Below, piece by piece: positions 16,666 to 28,626 of a DNA stretch of 28,626 bases (its first letter is position 1; each line of letters begins with the position of its first letter). A model generated the notes under the pieces. That model was not told the origin of the DNA. It did not search any database and worked only from the letters and a program-made list of their open reading frames with translations. Position numbers and translations under genes: made by a program. Origin of the DNA: a virus; the IMG/VR virus record IMGVR_UViG_3300010885_031004, positions 1-28,626 of that record; one strand, 5' to 3'.

Positions 16666-18209
16666 TGCCTTATAACGGATCAGGAACCTTCTTAATCAAC
16701 ACGACCGGGCAACCGGTTGTTGGTGGCACAACTATTTCTGCCAGTACGTTTAACACGCTCACAGCGGATCTAGGCACGGGCCTGTCCACGGCAATTACGA
16801 AAGACGGGCAAACGGCTACGACTGCGAGGATTCTGTTTGCTCAAGGCATAAACTCGACTTTGACTACGGATGCGACCTCGAGCACTACGGGTTCGATCAT
16901 CACCGATGGTGGCGTGGGAATAGCCAAGTCCGTATACATTGGTCAAAACGCAAATGTGGCCGGAACGCTGACGACTACAGGAGCCACTGGCACAGGCAAC
17001 CTCACGGTGACGGGCACGCTGGCGGTTAGCGGAGCTACAACCTTGTCCTCACCGCTCACCTATGGTGGCATCACGCTGACAAACAACGTCACAGGCACCG
17101 GCAAGATGGTTCTGGATACGTCGCCGACCTTATTCACTCCTGCGCTTGGAACCCCTACTGCTTTAGTCGGAACCAACATCACGGGGACCGCAGCTGGGCT
17201 AACAGCAGGCACCGTGACTACCAACGCTAACCTGACGGGCATGGTCACGTCGGTTGGCAATGCTGCTACCGTGGTGACTAATGCTAACCTGACGGGCGGA
17301 GTTACGTCGGTTGGCAATGCTGCTACCGTGGTGACCAACGCTAACCTTACTGGCATGGTCACGTCGGTTGGCAATGCTACTACGGTTGTAACCAACGCTA
17401 ACCTGACTGGCGGAGTCACAAGCGTAGGCAATGCTGCTACCGTTGTGACCAACGCTAACCTTACTGGCATGGTCACGTCGGTTGGCAATGCTACTACGGT
17501 TTTGACCAACGCTAATTTGACGGGCGGAGTCACGTCGGTTGGCAATGCTACTACGGTTGTGACCAACGCTAACCTGACGGGCGGAGTCACGTCGGTAGGC
17601 AACGCTGCTACCGTTGTGACTAACGCTAACCTGACGGGCATGGTCACGTCGGTAGGAAACGCTGCTGTACTGGGATCGTTCAGTTCAGCAAACTTGGCAA
17701 CGGCATTAACCGACGAGACAGGCAGTGGTGCCGCAGTGTTTGGTACCGCTCCTACGCTTACTAATACGGTGCTCTCTGGCACGTTAAGCGCAGGCTCAAC
17801 CGTTGGCACGAGCGGCCAGGTTCTCAGTTCTACTGGGACAGGGGTTCAATGGGTAGCGTCTGCCGGTGGCGGCACTGTCACCAGCGTGGCCCAGTCGTTC
17901 ACGGGTGGCCTAATCTCAGTCTCTGGTAGCCCCATTACAAGCTCAGGCACCTTGGCTATGACAGTGGCTGGGACCAGCGGTGGGGTGCCTTACTTCAATT
18001 CGGCTAGCACTTGGGCTACGTCTGCGGCATTGACGGCAAGTGCCCTTGTAGTTGGAGGAGGAGCTGGGGCGGCTCCCACATCTGTAGCTTTGGGCACAAA
18101 CGGCCAGTATTTAAGTTCTACTGGTTCTGGAGTGGCTTGGTCTACACTATCTATACCAGCGCCAGCAGCATCAAATATCTTTTTAGCAAATAATTTTGGA
18201 GGATTTTAG
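16665..18209 (+). CDS. Tail fibre/spike-type protein with eight 19-residue repeats
   Basis: 514 residues; its ATG overlaps the upstream TAA (TAATG) and AAAGGAAA lies upstream. An N-terminal part (1-180) rich in Gly/Thr, with TDGGVGIAKSVYIGQNANV as a typical fibre strand, is followed by eight copies of a 19-residue unit, TNANLTGMVTSVGNAATVV or the same with G for M, at residues 186-337. The C-terminal part has LSSTGTGVQWVASAGGGTV and a similar LSSTGSGVAWSTL motif, both common in phage fibres. Such repeats form trimeric beta-structured shafts. The repeat block suggests adjustable fibre length. Receptor-binding function is inferred from composition and position. Confidence 0.78.
   Translation: MPYNGSGTFLINTTGQPVVGGTTISASTFNTLTADLGTGLSTAITKDGQTATTARILFAQGINSTLTTDATSSTTGSIITDGGVGIAKSVYIGQNANVAGTLTTTGATGTGNLTVTGTLAVSGATTLSSPLTYGGITLTNNVTGTGKMVLDTSPTLFTPALGTPTALVGTNITGTAAGLTAGTVTTNANLTGMVTSVGNAATVVTNANLTGGVTSVGNAATVVTNANLTGMVTSVGNATTVVTNANLTGGVTSVGNAATVVTNANLTGMVTSVGNATTVLTNANLTGGVTSVGNATTVVTNANLTGGVTSVGNAATVVTNANLTGMVTSVGNAAVLGSFSSANLATALTDETGSGAAVFGTAPTLTNTVLSGTLSAGSTVGTSGQVLSSTGTGVQWVASAGGGTVTSVAQSFTGGLISVSGSPITSSGTLAMTVAGTSGGVPYFNSASTWATSAALTASALVVGGGAGAAPTSVALGTNGQYLSSTGSGVAWSTLSIPAPAASNIFLANNFGGF
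17220..17675 (+). repeat. Eight tandem 57-bp repeats in the fibre gene
   Basis: Period is exactly 57 bp. Each unit encodes TNANLTG[M/G]VTSVGNA[A/T]TV[V/L]; the residue after TG alternates M,G,M,G,M,G,G,M. Units share long identical DNA blocks such as GTCACGTCGGTTGGCAATGC. Synonymous differences are mixed between units, which suggests gene conversion among them. Confidence 0.9.
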
Positions 18210-19036: not shown

Positions 19037-19953
19037 TGTTTAGCGCATCATTCAAGCAGTTTTTGACGTTTGTCGCTTCCACCGTGGCTACGGGACAAGC
19101 CATTTTCGGCTTCGGTTATGTGGGAATTTATGTTGCGATTACGAATCTAGTATCAAATACTGGGGTAGTCTCGACAAATACGTATGGAGCCGGGGGGGTC
19201 CGAGCCTATCTAGCTGCTGCAGGTTATGGCACCGACAAGGCCATTTTCGGATACGGCGTCGATGGGGTATCTGTTGTTTCGATGACGAATCTAGTATCAA
19301 ATACTGGGGTAGTCTCGACAGATACAACGGGAGTAGGTACGGCAAGGTCCGGTCTAGCTGCGGCAGGTTATGGAACCGATAAGGCCATTTTCGGCTACGG
19401 TTATGATGGGGTATCTTATGTTTCGATGACGAATCTAGTATCAAATACTGGGGTAGTCTCGACAGATACAACTGGAGTCGGGACGGCAAGAGGCTATCTA
19501 GCTGCGGCAGGTTATGGAACCGATAAGGCCATTTTCGGCTACGGCAACGCATTCGGGTATTATTCTCTTACGAATCTAGTATCAAATACTGGAGTAGTCG
19601 CTACAGATACAACGGGAGTAGGTACGGTAAGGTCCGGTCTAGCGGCGGCAGGTTATGGCACCGACAAGGCCATTTTCGGATACGGCGCCGATGCGACGTT
19701 TGATTATTCTCTTACGAATCTCGTATCAAATACTGGGGTAGTCTCGACAGATACAACGGGAGTAGGTACGGTAAGGTCCGGTCTAGCTGCGGCAGGTTAT
19801 GGAACCGATAAGGCCATTTTCGGCTACGGCGGCGATTATTCTCTTACGAATCTGTATTCTCTTACGAATCTAGTATCAAATACTGGGGTAGTCGCTACAG
19901 ATACAACGGGAGTAGGTCAGGCAAGGTCCGGTCTAGCGGCGGCAGGGTTTTAA
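19036..19953 (+). CDS. Six-blade repeat protein, predicted beta-propeller fibre tip
   Basis: 305 residues. After 21 residues, six units of 47-48 residues follow, each reading AIFGYG, a variable 7-13-residue loop, then TNLVSNTGVVSTDTTGVG and a link ending LAAAGYGTDK. I recognise this AIFGYG/TNLVSNTGVV/GLAAAGYGTDK family from environmental phages; six similar blades suggest a six-bladed beta-propeller, though that is inferred. Frameworks are almost identical while the segment after AIFGYG varies (VDGVSVVSM, YDGVSYVSM, NAFGYYSL, ADATFDYSL, GDYSLTNLYSL), as expected if the loops bind host sugars or proteins. The start overlaps the upstream stop, so translation is coupled. No reverse transcriptase or template repeat is in the window. 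Confidence 0.72.
   Translation: MFSASFKQFLTFVASTVATGQAIFGFGYVGIYVAITNLVSNTGVVSTNTYGAGGVRAYLAAAGYGTDKAIFGYGVDGVSVVSMTNLVSNTGVVSTDTTGVGTARSGLAAAGYGTDKAIFGYGYDGVSYVSMTNLVSNTGVVSTDTTGVGTARGYLAAAGYGTDKAIFGYGNAFGYYSLTNLVSNTGVVATDTTGVGTVRSGLAAAGYGTDKAIFGYGADATFDYSLTNLVSNTGVVSTDTTGVGTVRSGLAAAGYGTDKAIFGYGGDYSLTNLYSLTNLVSNTGVVATDTTGVGQARSGLAAAGF
19099..19953 (+). repeat. Six tandem 141/144-bp repeats with an 18-bp micro-duplication in the last unit
   Basis: Units start at GCCATTTTCGG at 19099, 19240, 19384, 19528, 19669 and 19813, giving spacings of 141, 144, 144, 141 and 144. Long blocks such as TAGTATCAAATACTGG recur almost unchanged. In the last unit TATTCTCTTACGAATCT occurs twice in a row (19837-19854 and 19855-19872), adding six residues to that loop. 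Confidence 0.92.
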
Positions 19954-24636: not shown

Positions 24637-24666
24637 TTGACAGTTTATTTTCATCAATGTTATTCT
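24637..24666 (+). promoter_or_regulatory. Sigma70-type promoter of the repressor gene, predicted leaderless start
   Basis: TTGACA (24637-24642), a perfect -35, is followed after 18 bases by TATTCT (24661-24666), a fair -10. Transcription should begin about 7 bases downstream, at or next to the A of the ATG at 24673. No Shine-Dalgarno sequence lies between. Lambda cI made from PRM is a known leaderless case. Confidence 0.68.
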
Positions 24667-24672
24667 CGGCCT

Positions 24673-24906
24673 ATGAAGAAATCGATTGCGATAGCGTTTT
24701 ACGGTGGCATGGGAAACGTGGCAAAGGCGTTGAACATCAGCAGGCAGGCCGTTGAGCAGTGGAACCAGTTGATACCGGAGGGATCTGCCTACAAATTGCA
24801 GGTTGTTTCCGGCGACAAGTTGCTTGTTGACCCGATGGAGTATAAGGTGGCGGTGGTTTCCGAAAGGCGTAGAAAAGCGAAGCCGTTGGCCGTGGCGGCG
24901 CGCTAG
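24673..24906 (+). CDS. Cro-like helix-turn-helix repressor
   Basis: 77 residues from the ATG at 24673. The helix-turn-helix covers about residues 13-33 (GNVAKALNISRQAVEQWNQ), followed by IPEGSAYKLQVVSGDKLLVD, which matches the Cro/YdaS-type layout 'IPEGRAYQLE--TGG-L--D'. The C-terminus is basic (SERRRKAKPL). Such a protein binds operators in the divergent control region and represses early genes, possibly including its own. A CI partner or an integrase is not in the window, so the phage's temperate state is unproven. The gene runs directly into the primase-helicase gene with no gap (TAG then GTG). Confidence 0.75.
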   Translation: MKKSIAIAFYGGMGNVAKALNISRQAVEQWNQLIPEGSAYKLQVVSGDKLLVDPMEYKVAVVSERRRKAKPLAVAAR

Positions 24907-26865
24907 GTGTTGCTTTTAGAGTCTGCCTTAAAATACGCGGAGCTGGGTTTTGCAGTATTGCCCTTACATACCGTGATTGAGGGCGTGTGCTCGTGCTCGA
25001 ACCAGGCGTGCCGCAGCGCAGGAAAGCACCCGCTCATACCGCACGGCCTGACCGATGCTTCGTCCGACGAGACGCTGATACGCGGCTGGTGGTCGAGATG
25101 GCCGCAGGCCAACATCGGACTAAAGATGGGCATCAACGGTATTGTGGCCATAGACGTAGACACGCGGCACAACGGCGATGAGACGTGGGCAGCGATCAAA
25201 GCGGCGAACGGAGTTATTCCTGAGACTACAACGCAAAAAACGGGCAACGGCTGGCATTACCTGTTTGCCGTAGGACCGGAGGTGCTTGCCGCGATCAAAG
25301 GCAAGTTAGGCGAGGGCATCGACATCAAGGCGAACGGCTATATTGTTGCAGAACCGAGCGTCCATCATACGGGGGCAGTTTATCGCTGGGAAGTGGGGCG
25401 GGATCTGCTCAGAGGATTCACGCCGGCAATTGCTCCCCGCTGGCTCGAAAGGCTAATGTGTGAGCCAATAGCGTTTCCAGTTTCTCAGTTGCCTCCGGCT
25501 TCGGGGAGCGGGTGGAAGGCAGCGATAACATTTCCCCGCCAGCTCGATGATGCGCGATTGGCTCTCAAAGTTTTGGACGCGGAAGATTATCACCAATGGA
25601 TCGAAGCGGGAATGGCTTTGCACGCAACCGGTCTAGGCTCCCCTGCGTATGAGATTTGGTGCGAGTGGTCGCAGAGGTCCACCAAATTTGATGCCCAGCA
25701 CCAAGCCGAGAGGTGGAACAGCTTTACGGTGAAACCGGGGGGCGTATCTATTGCTACCCTGTTTGCCAGGGCGCAACAGGTAGGCTGGGTGAACCCGATG
25801 AGTGGATCTTCCCCGTCTACGCCTCCAGTGATCGCTCATACTCCTGCATTTCGGGTTGAGCCGGGGAGTGAGTTTGCTGCCAACTTTCGCTCACCTGAGT
25901 ATTCGGTGGACGGCATCCTGCTGCGTGGTTATCTACATGGTTTGACAGGACTTAGTAACGCAGGCAAAACTGCGATTGCGCTGGCGCTGGCTGTTTCGGT
26001 GGCAACCGGTACGCCTTTCGGTGGAAGGGCTGTCGAAAAGGGTCGAGTGCTTTTCATGGCTGGCGAGAATCCAGAGGATTTGCGCCTTAGAATCAAGGGG
26101 GTAGAGCAGTTCTACAATCTCCAGGGGCAATTGAACGACATCAGCGTTGCGTTCGCCAGATTTGAGTTGTTATCGAACATCGAAGCGTTGCGGTCATTGG
26201 CGCTGGAAATGGGCGGCTTTGATCTGGTGATCGTGGACTCGAGCGCGGCTTTTTTCTCTGGCACTGACGAAAACTCGAACCCGGAGATGGTGGCGCACTC
26301 GATGAAGCTGCGCTGCCTGACCGAACTGGCTGGCCGTCCGGCGGTGCTGGTGGTGTGTCACCCATCTAAGCATGCCTCCAGTGTCGAATCGTTGCTACCG
26401 AGAGGCGGCAGCGCGTTCCTGAACGAACTGGACGCCAATCTGACAGCACACAAGGAAGGCGAGGTGGTTAGTTTGCACTGGAACAAACTCAGAGGACCGG
26501 CGTTTGAGCCTGTGCAGATTAAGCTCGAAGTATTTGTGTTCGAGCATATCACCACCAATCTGGGGTCAAAAGTCACGAGCGTGGTGGCGGTCCCTGTCGA
26601 TGCTGCCACCAGTGAGATGATGACAGCGAGGGCCGAGGAGGAAGAGAACAGGGTTTTGATGTTACTTGGCTCGATGCCGGGGATTACCGTGCGCGGCATC
26701 TGTGAGCAGGCTGGCTGGATAAACCGACGTGGGGAGCCAATGACGAGCAAAGTACATCGGTTGCTGGCGAGTCTTGAGGCGGACAAACTGATACGCAAAT
26801 ACCGCCGGAAATGGGTGGTAAAACGGAGCGCAAAGAAGCCCGAAGATGGAGCCAAAGATGAGTGA
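24907..26865 (+). CDS. Bifunctional primase-polymerase fused to RepA-like helicase ATPase
   Basis: 652 residues; the GTG directly follows the repressor stop, a TTG at 24910 is the alternative. N-terminal archaeo-eukaryotic-type primase-polymerase: AIDVD with D83 and D85 (metal ligands), GNGWHYLF with H117, and GIDIKANGYIVAEPS with D139. A CSC-x4-C plus AGKHP segment (C28, C30, C35, H41) may bind zinc. Residues about 205-295 resemble a PriCT-2 domain (AGMALHATGLG, WCEWSQRSTKFD). The ATPase has GLTGLSNAGKT (345-355), VLFMAGENPEDL, FDLVIVDS (438-445) and VVCHPSKH, as in RepA/AAA_25 helicases. The last 90 residues look like a winged helix. It probably primes and unwinds at the phage origin. Confidence 0.88.
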   Translation: MLLLESALKYAELGFAVLPLHTVIEGVCSCSNQACRSAGKHPLIPHGLTDASSDETLIRGWWSRWPQANIGLKMGINGIVAIDVDTRHNGDETWAAIKAANGVIPETTTQKTGNGWHYLFAVGPEVLAAIKGKLGEGIDIKANGYIVAEPSVHHTGAVYRWEVGRDLLRGFTPAIAPRWLERLMCEPIAFPVSQLPPASGSGWKAAITFPRQLDDARLALKVLDAEDYHQWIEAGMALHATGLGSPAYEIWCEWSQRSTKFDAQHQAERWNSFTVKPGGVSIATLFARAQQVGWVNPMSGSSPSTPPVIAHTPAFRVEPGSEFAANFRSPEYSVDGILLRGYLHGLTGLSNAGKTAIALALAVSVATGTPFGGRAVEKGRVLFMAGENPEDLRLRIKGVEQFYNLQGQLNDISVAFARFELLSNIEALRSLALEMGGFDLVIVDSSAAFFSGTDENSNPEMVAHSMKLRCLTELAGRPAVLVVCHPSKHASSVESLLPRGGSAFLNELDANLTAHKEGEVVSLHWNKLRGPAFEPVQIKLEVFVFEHITTNLGSKVTSVVAVPVDAATSEMMTARAEEEENRVLMLLGSMPGITVRGICEQAGWINRRGEPMTSKVHRLLASLEADKLIRKYRRKWVVKRSAKKPEDGAKDE

Positions 26866-26890
26866 TTTTTGTTCCACTCCATCTTTGGGC
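26838..26890 (+). repeat. 14-bp inverted repeat across the primase-helicase stop
   Basis: GCCCGAAGATGGAG (26838-26851) and CTCCATCTTTGGGC (26877-26890) are reverse complements apart from one base that still pairs as G-U in RNA. The 5' arm lies in the last codons of the gene. There is no T-run after it. It contains CCGAAGATG, which recurs in the hairpin at 28451-28536. Confidence 0.82.
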
Positions 26891-27064
26891 AAAAAGATTG
26901 GAACAAGATTGGCAAAGATCGAGAATGCGATTTGCCACTAAGCCGATTAGAATAATAGCTTTAAGCATACTTTTTCGTGGAACAAAATAGTAGAGTGTTA
27001 CAGGCAGAGAGATGGGACTCTGTACCACTCAATGTTTACTTTAGTAAAAAAGAACGTGGAACAA
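26869..27064. repeat. GTGGAACAA repeats between the helicase gene and the next gene
   Basis: GTGGAACAA occurs at 26977-26985 and 27056-27064, inverted at 26869-26877, and as TTGGAACAA at 26898-26906. Four copies in about 200 noncoding bases (26866-27112) are far more than expected by chance. They could be binding sites for the replication protein or a regulator. The rest of this gap holds a TTTACT-TT-AGTAAA palindrome and no gene I can support. Confidence 0.6.
27035..27048. promoter_or_regulatory. 14-bp palindrome, operator-like
   Basis: TTTACTTTAGTAAA is a perfect inverted repeat of TTTACT around two central bases. It lies between two GTGGAACAA copies and 65 bases before the next gene. A repressor or replication-protein site is possible; there is no direct proof. 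Confidence 0.35.
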
Positions 27065-27112
27065 GAAGGGCATATGGGGTCGCGAAGCGAGGCCCAGAGA
27101 GGGAGGGGGAAT

Positions 27113-27295: not shown

Positions 27296-27407
27296 GGCGC
27301 TGCTGGTGAGGCCGGAGGGCCGGTGGTCCCCTTGGGTACCGGGAAGGCTGATCGGTAGCGTAGAGGGTCGTCAGGGCTTCAAGGAAGGGGTATTGAATGA
27401 GGATTAG
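27288..27407 (+). CDS. Possible 39-residue protein bridging two genes
   Basis: A GTG at 27288, overlapping the end of the coiled-coil gene, opens a frame that ends 11 bases inside the VRR-NUC gene. The peptide contains LLVRPEGRWSPWVPGR and ends GFKEGVLNED, not a random-looking sequence. AAGGAG lies about 10 bases upstream. Overlaps at both ends are typical of compact phage operons. No homologue is known to me and the coding claim rests on layout alone. Confidence 0.38.
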   Translation: MRRALLVRPEGRWSPWVPGRLIGSVEGRQGFKEGVLNED

Positions 27408-27687
27408 GGCGAGGGTTGATGTTAATCAGGGTAAGATCGTGAAAGCCCTGCGGAATTACGGAGCTACCGTGGCCATTACCTCCCAGCTGGGCGGCGGGTT
27501 CCCGGATATTGTAGTTGGGTACGCTTGCAGGAATTTCATGTTTGAGATCAAAGATCCCAAAAAACCCCTTTCGCAGCGCAAGCTTACGCCGGATGAACAG
27601 CGGTTTTCAGATGCCTGGGAGGGCCAATATGCTGTAGTTGAAACAGCCGAACAGGCGATCACGATATTGGCCGGGGAAGAGGTATGA
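27397..27687 (+). CDS. VRR-NUC domain nuclease
   Basis: 96 residues, AAGGAAGGGG upstream. The core is LGGGFPDIVVGY with D37, then MFEIKD with E50 and K52, followed by SQRKLTPDEQRF, which is the VRR-NUC layout of the PD-(D/E)XK fold. Stand-alone VRR-NUC proteins of phages are thought to cut branched DNA or act as resolvases. The position after the primase-helicase suggests handling of recombination or replication intermediates. Its stop overlaps the next start (ATGA at 27684-27687). Confidence 0.82.
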   Translation: MRIRARVDVNQGKIVKALRNYGATVAITSQLGGGFPDIVVGYACRNFMFEIKDPKKPLSQRKLTPDEQRFSDAWEGQYAVVETAEQAITILAGEEV

Positions 27688-28358
27688 AAAATATGTTGCG
27701 GCTCTTTGTTGGATACGACGCACGCGAAGCTATTGGATATCACGCATTCACCCAGTCTGTGATCGAACACGCTGCCGGCCCCGTCTCCATCACCGCATTG
27801 ACAGGCGAGCAACGCGACGGTACAAACGCATTTACCTACGCCCGTTTCCTAGTGCCATATCTGTGCAACTTCGAGGGCATAGCCTGCTTCGTCGATGGCA
27901 GCGATATGCTCGCCCTCGATGACATCGGACGGCTGTTCGAGCTGTTCGACCCAGGCTACGCTGTCCAGGTTGTCAAGCACGACTACCAGACCAAAAACCC
28001 CCGGAAATACATTGGGACAGAAATGGAAAGCGAAAACCACGACTACCCGCGCAAAAATTGGTCGAGTTTGATACTGTTCGACTGCGGAGCCGAGGAGAAC
28101 AGATGCCTGACGCCAGAATATATAGCGTCTAAACCTGGCTCTTTTCTCCACCGCTTCTCGTGGCTGCAGGATGATGACATCGGTGCATTGCCCCCGGAAT
28201 GGAATTCTCTGATCGACGAGCTGGAGCCGGTCCCCAACACACCCGTCAAGATTGCCCATTTCACCCTTGGAATCCCCGCCATCGAGCACTATTCCAAATC
28301 CACACTGGCCAGCACCTGGAAAGCAACAAGCGCACGCGCAAATCGCAAGCCCGTGTAA
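27684..28358 (+). CDS. Glycosyltransferase, GT-A-type phage family
   Basis: 224 residues; ATG overlaps the upstream stop. The order LRLFVGYDAREAIGYH, FTYARFLVPYLCNFEG, CFVDGSD (metal-binding DxD-like, 71-74), VQVVKHDYQTK and YPRKNWSSLILFDC is that of a phage/bacterial glycosyltransferase family with a GT-A fold related to GT8. Such enzymes transfer a sugar to a host glycan or a modified base or protein. It sits with replication genes, so DNA-base or host-surface modification are both possible. Residues after 200 are basic and variable. A start at 27693 is also possible. Confidence 0.75.
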   Translation: MKNMLRLFVGYDAREAIGYHAFTQSVIEHAAGPVSITALTGEQRDGTNAFTYARFLVPYLCNFEGIACFVDGSDMLALDDIGRLFELFDPGYAVQVVKHDYQTKNPRKYIGTEMESENHDYPRKNWSSLILFDCGAEENRCLTPEYIASKPGSFLHRFSWLQDDDIGALPPEWNSLIDELEPVPNTPVKIAHFTLGIPAIEHYSKSTLASTWKATSARANRKPV

Positions 28359-28406
28359 TCGAGCCACAAATTAACTCTATTGCGGAATTAGGAATCCAAC
28401 GCCAGA

Positions 28407-28450
28407 AGTGTGGAGAAAGTGTGGAGAAAATGTGGAGAAAGTGCGGAGAT
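28407..28450 (+). repeat. Four tandem 11-bp repeats, left iteron block
   Basis: AGTGTGGAGAA at 28407 and 28418, AATGTGGAGAA at 28429 and AGTGCGGAGAT at 28440, with no gap. The complement contains TTCTCCACA, one base from the DnaA box TTATCCACA. An 11-bp period puts each copy on the same face of the helix. Confidence 0.85.
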
Positions 28451-28536
28451 CCGCCCGAAGATGACCAACGCGTCCGAAGATGCCCAACAAAATTACATGG
28501 GCATCTTCGGGGAAGTTGGGCACCTTCGGGAGGCGG
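28451..28536 (+). repeat. 86-nt imperfect hairpin between the two iteron blocks
   Basis: Nested pairs: CCGCC/GGCGG (28451-28455 with 28532-28536), CGAAG/CTTCG (28456-28460 with 28524-28528), CCAAC/GTTGG (28465-28469 with 28515-28519) and a perfect 12-bp tip stem (28474-28485 with 28499-28510) around a 13-base loop. CCGAAGATG occurs twice in the 5' arm. There is no T-run after it. Confidence 0.85.
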
Positions 28537-28547
28537 AGGACGACCCC

Positions 28548-28591
28548 ATCGTGGAGAAAGTGCGGAGACAATGTGGAGAAAGTGCGGAGAT
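28548..28591 (+). repeat. Four tandem 11-bp repeats, right iteron block
   Basis: ATCGTGGAGAA at 28548, AGTGCGGAGAC at 28559, AATGTGGAGAA at 28570 and AGTGCGGAGAT at 28581, in the same direction as the left block. The stretch 28359-28626 has no gene I can support; beyond the repeats it holds only short unremarkable flanks. Confidence 0.82.
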
Positions 28592-28626
28592 GTATTTTAA
28601 GTGCTCCCAACCTCGTATAACCGCCG

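Follow-up and report, generated by a model that had tools for sequence, protein, structure and literature searches.

We tentatively interpret the noncoding repeat patch at positions 28407 to 28591 of this freshwater phage as an accessory cassette of sites bound by the initiators of other replicons, perhaps a decoy or incompatibility element; judged from sequence comparisons, the probability of this reading is about 0.4. The window, i.e., the whole stretch of DNA analyzed, is an entire IMG/VR record (28,626 bp, linear) that starts inside a portal gene. Its right end carries on the minus strand genes for a Cas4-like exonuclease, a DUF669 SSB, and Sak4, followed by a Cro-like gene, the primase-helicase gene, a small ORF, an endonuclease-like gene, a glycosyltransferase-like gene, and the array (Table 1).

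In the proposed mechanism, the eight GTGYGGAGAA units would be copied from origin iterons of one element and the intervening hairpin from inverted origin iterons of another, while replication of the phage itself would start elsewhere, beside its primase-helicase. During multiplication of the phage genome, the cassette would tie up, by titration or handcuffing, the initiators of co-resident satellites, prophages, or plasmids, and replication of these rival elements would be suppressed as a decoy or incompatibility effect. A patch of foreign sites is the simplest account because it covers the second motif, the separate origin of the phage, the positional matches to other elements, and the gain and loss of such patches. 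As a function, a decoy would come most naturally, since extra copies of an origin are known to block replicons and a replicating phage would supply many of them.

Two repeat types at the right end of the record

Eight 11-mers (RTGYGGAGANA) with a period of 11 lie in two blocks around a hairpin, an arrangement far beyond chance: the best period-11 self-identity over four units was 0.91, compared with a maximum of 0.67 among 200 dinucleotide shuffles of the window. Within both blocks the copies follow in exact 11-bp steps, all on the plus strand, and the first copy of the second block is the poorest of the eight. The four-plus-four, same-direction layout described in the initial annotation is thereby confirmed, as is, with small corrections, the long hairpin between the blocks. 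The hairpin arms (28451-28486 and 28498-28533) are 36 nt long and 81% complementary, with an 11-nt loop, and no shuffle folded as well as either the RNA of positions 28440 to 28560 (z = -5.9) or the DNA of positions 28359 to 28626 (z = -3.1). What had been overlooked is that a second repeat, the ~15-mer CCCGAAGRTGCCCAAC, makes up the hairpin in four copies, of which the two direct ones are 19 bp apart. The repeats are iteron-like, as had been proposed, and of a kind known to be bound by initiator helicases.

Table 1. Positions of genes and repeat features in the window and in related loci
Feature	Position	Strand	Description
P22-Cro-like protein gene	24637-24906		
Primase-helicase gene	24907..26865	+	Prim-Pol + PriCT-2 + AAA_25, C-terminal HTH-like domain
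Likely own origin	26866..27070	+	TGGAACAA iterons flanking an AT-rich, weakly paired stretch
TGGAACAA iterons	26869(-), 26899(+), 26978(+), 27057(+)		
Small protein gene	27397..27687	+	Weak similarity to phage endonucleases (phrog_93)
phrog_28018/glycosyltransferase-like gene	27684..28358	+	Directly 5' of the cassette
Iteron block 1	28407..28450	+	Four 11-mers RTGYGGAGANA
Block 1 copies	28407, 28418, 28429, 28440		AGTGTGGAGAA, AGTGTGGAGAA, AATGTGGAGAA, AGTGCGGAGAT
Hairpin	28451..28533	.	Built from second repeat type CCCGAAGRTGCCCAAC, 2 direct + 2 inverted
CCCGAAGRTGCCCAAC copies	28454-28469 (+), 28473-28488 (+), 28498-28511 (-), 28515-28530 (-)		
Iteron block 2	28548..28591	+	Four 11-mers in block 1 direction, first copy degenerate
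Block 2 copies	28548, 28559, 28570, 28581		ATCGTGGAGAA, AGTGCGGAGAC, AATGTGGAGAA, AGTGCGGAGAT
Side-by-side inverted arrays	L191:3078-3366; L190:6090-6316		
TGCCGAATGTC array + GTGTGCA inverted repeats	L019:5969-6120, L026:2719-2870		Between own iterons and endonuclease-like gene

The gap that holds the array is noncoding by gene context, its open frames being short or overlapping the upstream gene. The center of the array is 40% AT with average duplex stability, and in both AT content and duplex weakness the array ranks at about the 50th percentile within the window. Neither a promoter-like site nor a terminator was found in the array region, and the hairpin lacks the form of an intrinsic terminator (a GC-rich hairpin followed by a T run). 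An Rfam search gave no match, and a BLASTN search of phages and plasmids with the 268-bp gap as the query returned chance matches only (E of at least 3). The same array was found in no relative; for the glycosyltransferase-like gene the single match was distant and without an array.

The initial annotation had named the host DnaA as a possible binder of the 11-mers. Their likeness to a DnaA box holds to the extent that the 9-mer TTCTCCACA differs by one base from the consensus TTATCCACA, although only four of the eight copies have it unaltered. A DnaA box needs CCACA; half of the units depart from the box, three of them with CCGCA, and the consensus TTWTNCACA was not matched anywhere within 17 kb of the array. 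With the terminal CACA kept in only half of the units and no consensus box nearby, DnaA is disfavored, and a DnaA-box cluster was rejected on these grounds.

A second contig, L209 (IMGVR_UViG_3300009181_002072), comes from the same virus, overlapping the left end of the window over 1,676 bp with one mismatch (99.94% identity) and carrying terS, terL, and portal genes upstream of the window start. Directly before terS it has a third array of about 20 GCTGCCCR repeats (L209:1-200). Gene order in relatives such as L014 suggests that the gap before terS is the one occupied by the 28407-28591 array. Elsewhere in the window, two structural-region proteins contain coding tandem repeats of 57 bp and 144 bp (17220-17666 and 19130-19946).

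A separate array adjoining the primase-helicase gene

The origin of the phage itself is likely the region from 26866 to 27070, the only noncoding repeat cluster in the window besides 28407-28591. Its first iteron lies 4 bp past the stop codon of the primase-helicase gene, and in both AT content and duplex weakness the region ranks in the 99th percentile (top 1%) within the window. This arrangement resembles that of SaPI Rep, SCCmec Cch2, and the pri-rep of Gram-negative PICIs, in which iterons lie directly 3' of the initiator gene and are linked to the initiator C terminus; P4 alpha and pRN1 are cousins of these systems. In SaPI and SCCmec Cch2 initiator helicases, a C-terminal DNA-binding domain acts on iterons downstream of the gene (PMC7581432), and Gram-negative PICI origins have two iteron sets around an AT-rich region (PMC6092414). 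In contrast to origins of this type, the 28407-28591 array is 1.5 kb from the initiator gene, behind three ORFs, and has another motif and a GC-rich center. The earlier suggestion that it is the phage's own origin therefore found no support, given the separate array adjoining the primase-helicase gene, and GC skew showed no switch at the array in this partial record.

Binding of the 11-mers by the primase-helicase, also suggested initially, is likewise unsupported, as the array is absent from all 32 loci of relatives that keep this gene. Those relatives with 3' flanking sequence carry a different array, composed of 8- to 11-bp repeats in direct and inverted orientation within 0 to 45 bp around the stop codon, and L004 to L011 have the same TGGAACAA iteron as the window. 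Iteron type tracks the C-terminal domain of the initiator, not the near-identical N-terminal half. The N-terminal 330 aa of the L011, L014, L028, and L030 primase-helicases are 90 to 95% identical and the C-terminal 130 aa are 22 to 26% identical, except for L028 versus L030 (68%). The corresponding iterons are TGGAACAA in L011, GCGCCAATG in L014, CTACCGCAT in L028, and AACCGCATG in L030, those of the last two being similar, overlapping motifs. The window N terminus is equally far from all four (56 to 57% identity), and its C terminus is closest to that of L011 (47%), whose iteron it shares. Statistically, this linkage is drawn from four or five independent types of initiator.

The primase-helicase is a candidate initiator for 26866-27070, and its C-terminal domain is modeled with an HTH core at a pLDDT of 80 to 92 (wing region, <50; PDB matches weak, E > 0.5), so that a winged helix is plausible but not proven. 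The L011, L014, L028, and L030 proteins are also an instance of natural module swapping, in which near-identical Prim-Pol halves are joined to helicase/C-terminal halves that are unrelated and have separate iterons downstream. A comparable covariation is found in the RepA/ori system of the Vibrio cholerae PLE satellites, where the DNA-binding domain covaries with the origin and the remainder of the protein is conserved (PMC8263062), although PLE RepA belongs to the RepA_N family and its iterons are semi-palindromic and ~30 bp long.

Similar motifs beside initiator genes of other elements

Arrays matching both repeat types of the cassette lie beside initiator-helicase genes of other elements. 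A GTGCGGAGAA array is located 3' of the DUF3987 helicase gene in an integrative element of Methylovulum psychrotolerans (roughly 8.9 kb, with a tyrosine integrase, tRNA-Leu, and 42-nt flanking repeats), where 10 copies of GCGGAGAA in both directions lie around and after the stop codon within about 300 bp. The tandem 11-mer pattern occurred in only 1 of 369 gammaproteobacterial genomes, that of Methylovulum, and there only at this array. Six of the nine DUF3987 homologues in the family of Methylovulum carry distinct repeats of their own in the corresponding position (AGAAATTAG, AACTTAG types, GCGAATTT, and CGAATAAAC), and three have none or weak ones; element-specific iterons just past the DUF3987 stop codon are possibly a general origin rule. 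DUF3987 is among the primase models used for finding PICMI satellites (PMC10803314). In L202, L203, L204, L205, L207, and L200, from genomes of the Methylovulum family, the iterons are specific to the element and lie no more than about 250 bp from the DUF3987 stop codon. On a viral contig (L153), a ATGTGGAGAAG array similar to GTGCGGAGAA follows an AAA_25 helicase gene; the flanking genes scanned (n = 10) included this one replication helicase, besides L070.

The hairpin motif recurs as inverted arrays (CGAAGRTGCCCAA) that overlap the 3' ends of AAA_25 helicase genes in L312 and L313. Exact 15-mers (TTGGGCACCTTCGGG), 14-mers, and 13-mers are shared with the window hairpin, and the matching sequence is unique within each of the two loci. 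At about 16 kb each, these contigs encode a DnaG-type zinc-ribbon primase or an integrase as well as capsid and tail or lysis functions. They are prophage-like and perhaps not satellites but small prophages; because of their tape-measure or lysis genes, their designation as capsid-forming PICIs was dropped. The L313 C terminus gave no confident fold (pLDDT, 43).

These cognates were picked from about 180 pattern matches, most of them chance or coding, on the basis of position and of 13 to 16 nt of sequence identity, so the argument is carried by position and match length and not by match count. Hairpins of the CGAAGRTGCCC type were found in none of the 369 gammaproteobacterial genomes and three-copy 11-mer patterns in none of the viral contigs. 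The two-copy 11-mer pattern had 40 matches in 85k species genomes, mostly chance or coding; those in Bacteroidales were set aside, as they look like coding linkers (NVEKxVEK) preceding an HTH. On another viral contig, a large helicase/DNA-polymerase-like gene is preceded by four to five TTTTCTCCACA repeats (L152:9185-9230).

Mixed patches of iteron-like repeats also occur in other phages, where close relatives differ by their gain or loss. In an unrelated group (L187, L188, and L190 to L193), two or three different inverted arrays, of the types TCACAGAAA, CCGAAGATG, and ATACTCGCC, lie between scaffold-like and capsid genes. L191 to L193 have the ATACTCGCC cassette, whereas L187, L188, and L190 do not, and members of the group differ in their number of CCGAAGATG units. 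Of the relatives with the primase-helicase, L019 and L026 have a TGCCGAATGTC cassette that L014 lacks.

Alternative explanations and implications

One or more origin fragments acquired by recombination from other mobile elements, and since retained as neutral sequence between genes, would account for the same motif matches. Such a functionless remnant would also agree with the coming and going of cassettes among close relatives, with the lack of an associated gene, and with the absence of the array from all primase-helicase and portal relatives. We nevertheless consider it somewhat unlikely, since two unrelated iteron types with exact 11-bp phasing are packed into one 185-bp patch, a third array precedes terS in L209, and another phage group has multitype patches; together these suggest repeated selection over one accident. 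The L209 gene order (terS-terL-portal after the gap) also invites interpretation as a packaging (pac or cos) site, with phased 11-mers bound by the terminase small subunit just upstream of its gene. The pac site of phage P1 has two blocks of short direct repeats around a center, a layout that the present array resembles. However, about 50 phages with a homologous terL (mostly 63 to 69%) and several hundred base pairs of sequence upstream of terS have no array there. As pac sites can diverge, this is not decisive, but a packaging site would leave unexplained why the same motifs flank initiator-helicase genes elsewhere, and we regard it as improbable.

About as improbable, or slightly more so, is that the phage's own replication proteins bind the array as a second origin or as an auxiliary site of replication, in the manner of P4 crr or of a dual replicon. 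Two iteron sets around a center are the layout of Gram-negative PICI origins (PMC6092414), and the window has a separate array too. A second origin of its own is nonetheless disfavored by motif and composition, the 11-mer being unlike the phage's own iteron TGGAACAA and the center not AT-rich, and the array is not conserved in relatives that keep the primase-helicase. Phage P1 offers a further comparison in incA, a second iteron array that lies away from the origin, as 28407-28591 does, and binds the initiator. The incA iteron is the same as that of the P1 origin; here, GTGYGGAGAA and TGGAACAA differ. Phased repeats in a noncoding gap and the presence of a Cro-like gene could instead point to an array of operators for a phage regulator, the P22-Cro-like protein being one candidate. 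A Cro-type operator would not usually have eight copies in one direction, and with no promoter-like site or terminator in the region, this explanation is very unlikely. An assembly error is possible because the array is at the contig end, 35 bp short of it, and there is no second record spanning the join, which could make the contig a chimera of phage and another element's origin. The two iteron types, the ordered four-hairpin-four layout, and the other repeat array in what is probably the same gap of the independent contig L209 argue against such an artifact, which we rate as the least likely of these explanations.

Sequence computation yielded the array, the separate array at 26866-27070 with its link to the initiator C terminus, and the similar arrays next to helicase genes elsewhere; for the cassette of foreign initiator sites that we favor, initiator binding and a decoy effect are inferred. 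Extra origin copies block a replicon by initiator competition in the cases of PER of phage Sfi21 (PMC6356513) and lambda ori (PMC4488673). These decoys are copies of the targeted phage's origin, with the cell or a plasmid as carrier, whereas here the phage would carry the origins of others. Phage ICP1, in contrast, attacks the PLE origin with a nuclease (Odn) and not with decoy sites. The literature searched, whose partial coverage makes this weak evidence of novelty, did not describe decoys for satellite origins that phages carry naturally. More generally, it is conceivable, though at present doubtful, that phages naturally carry compact, turnover-prone cassettes of rival-origin iterons that titrate the initiators of satellites and prophages, as a gene-free form of counter-defense.

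The link between iterons and the initiator C terminus would enable prediction of origins from sequence for Prim-Pol, DUF3987, and AAA_25 phage replicons, and orphan arrays could be matched to the elements that they may target. Both the decoy and the origin prediction ideas are testable with short DNA fragments. If the proposed reading is true, short noncoding repeat patches in phages would record competing replicons and act without encoding a protein.
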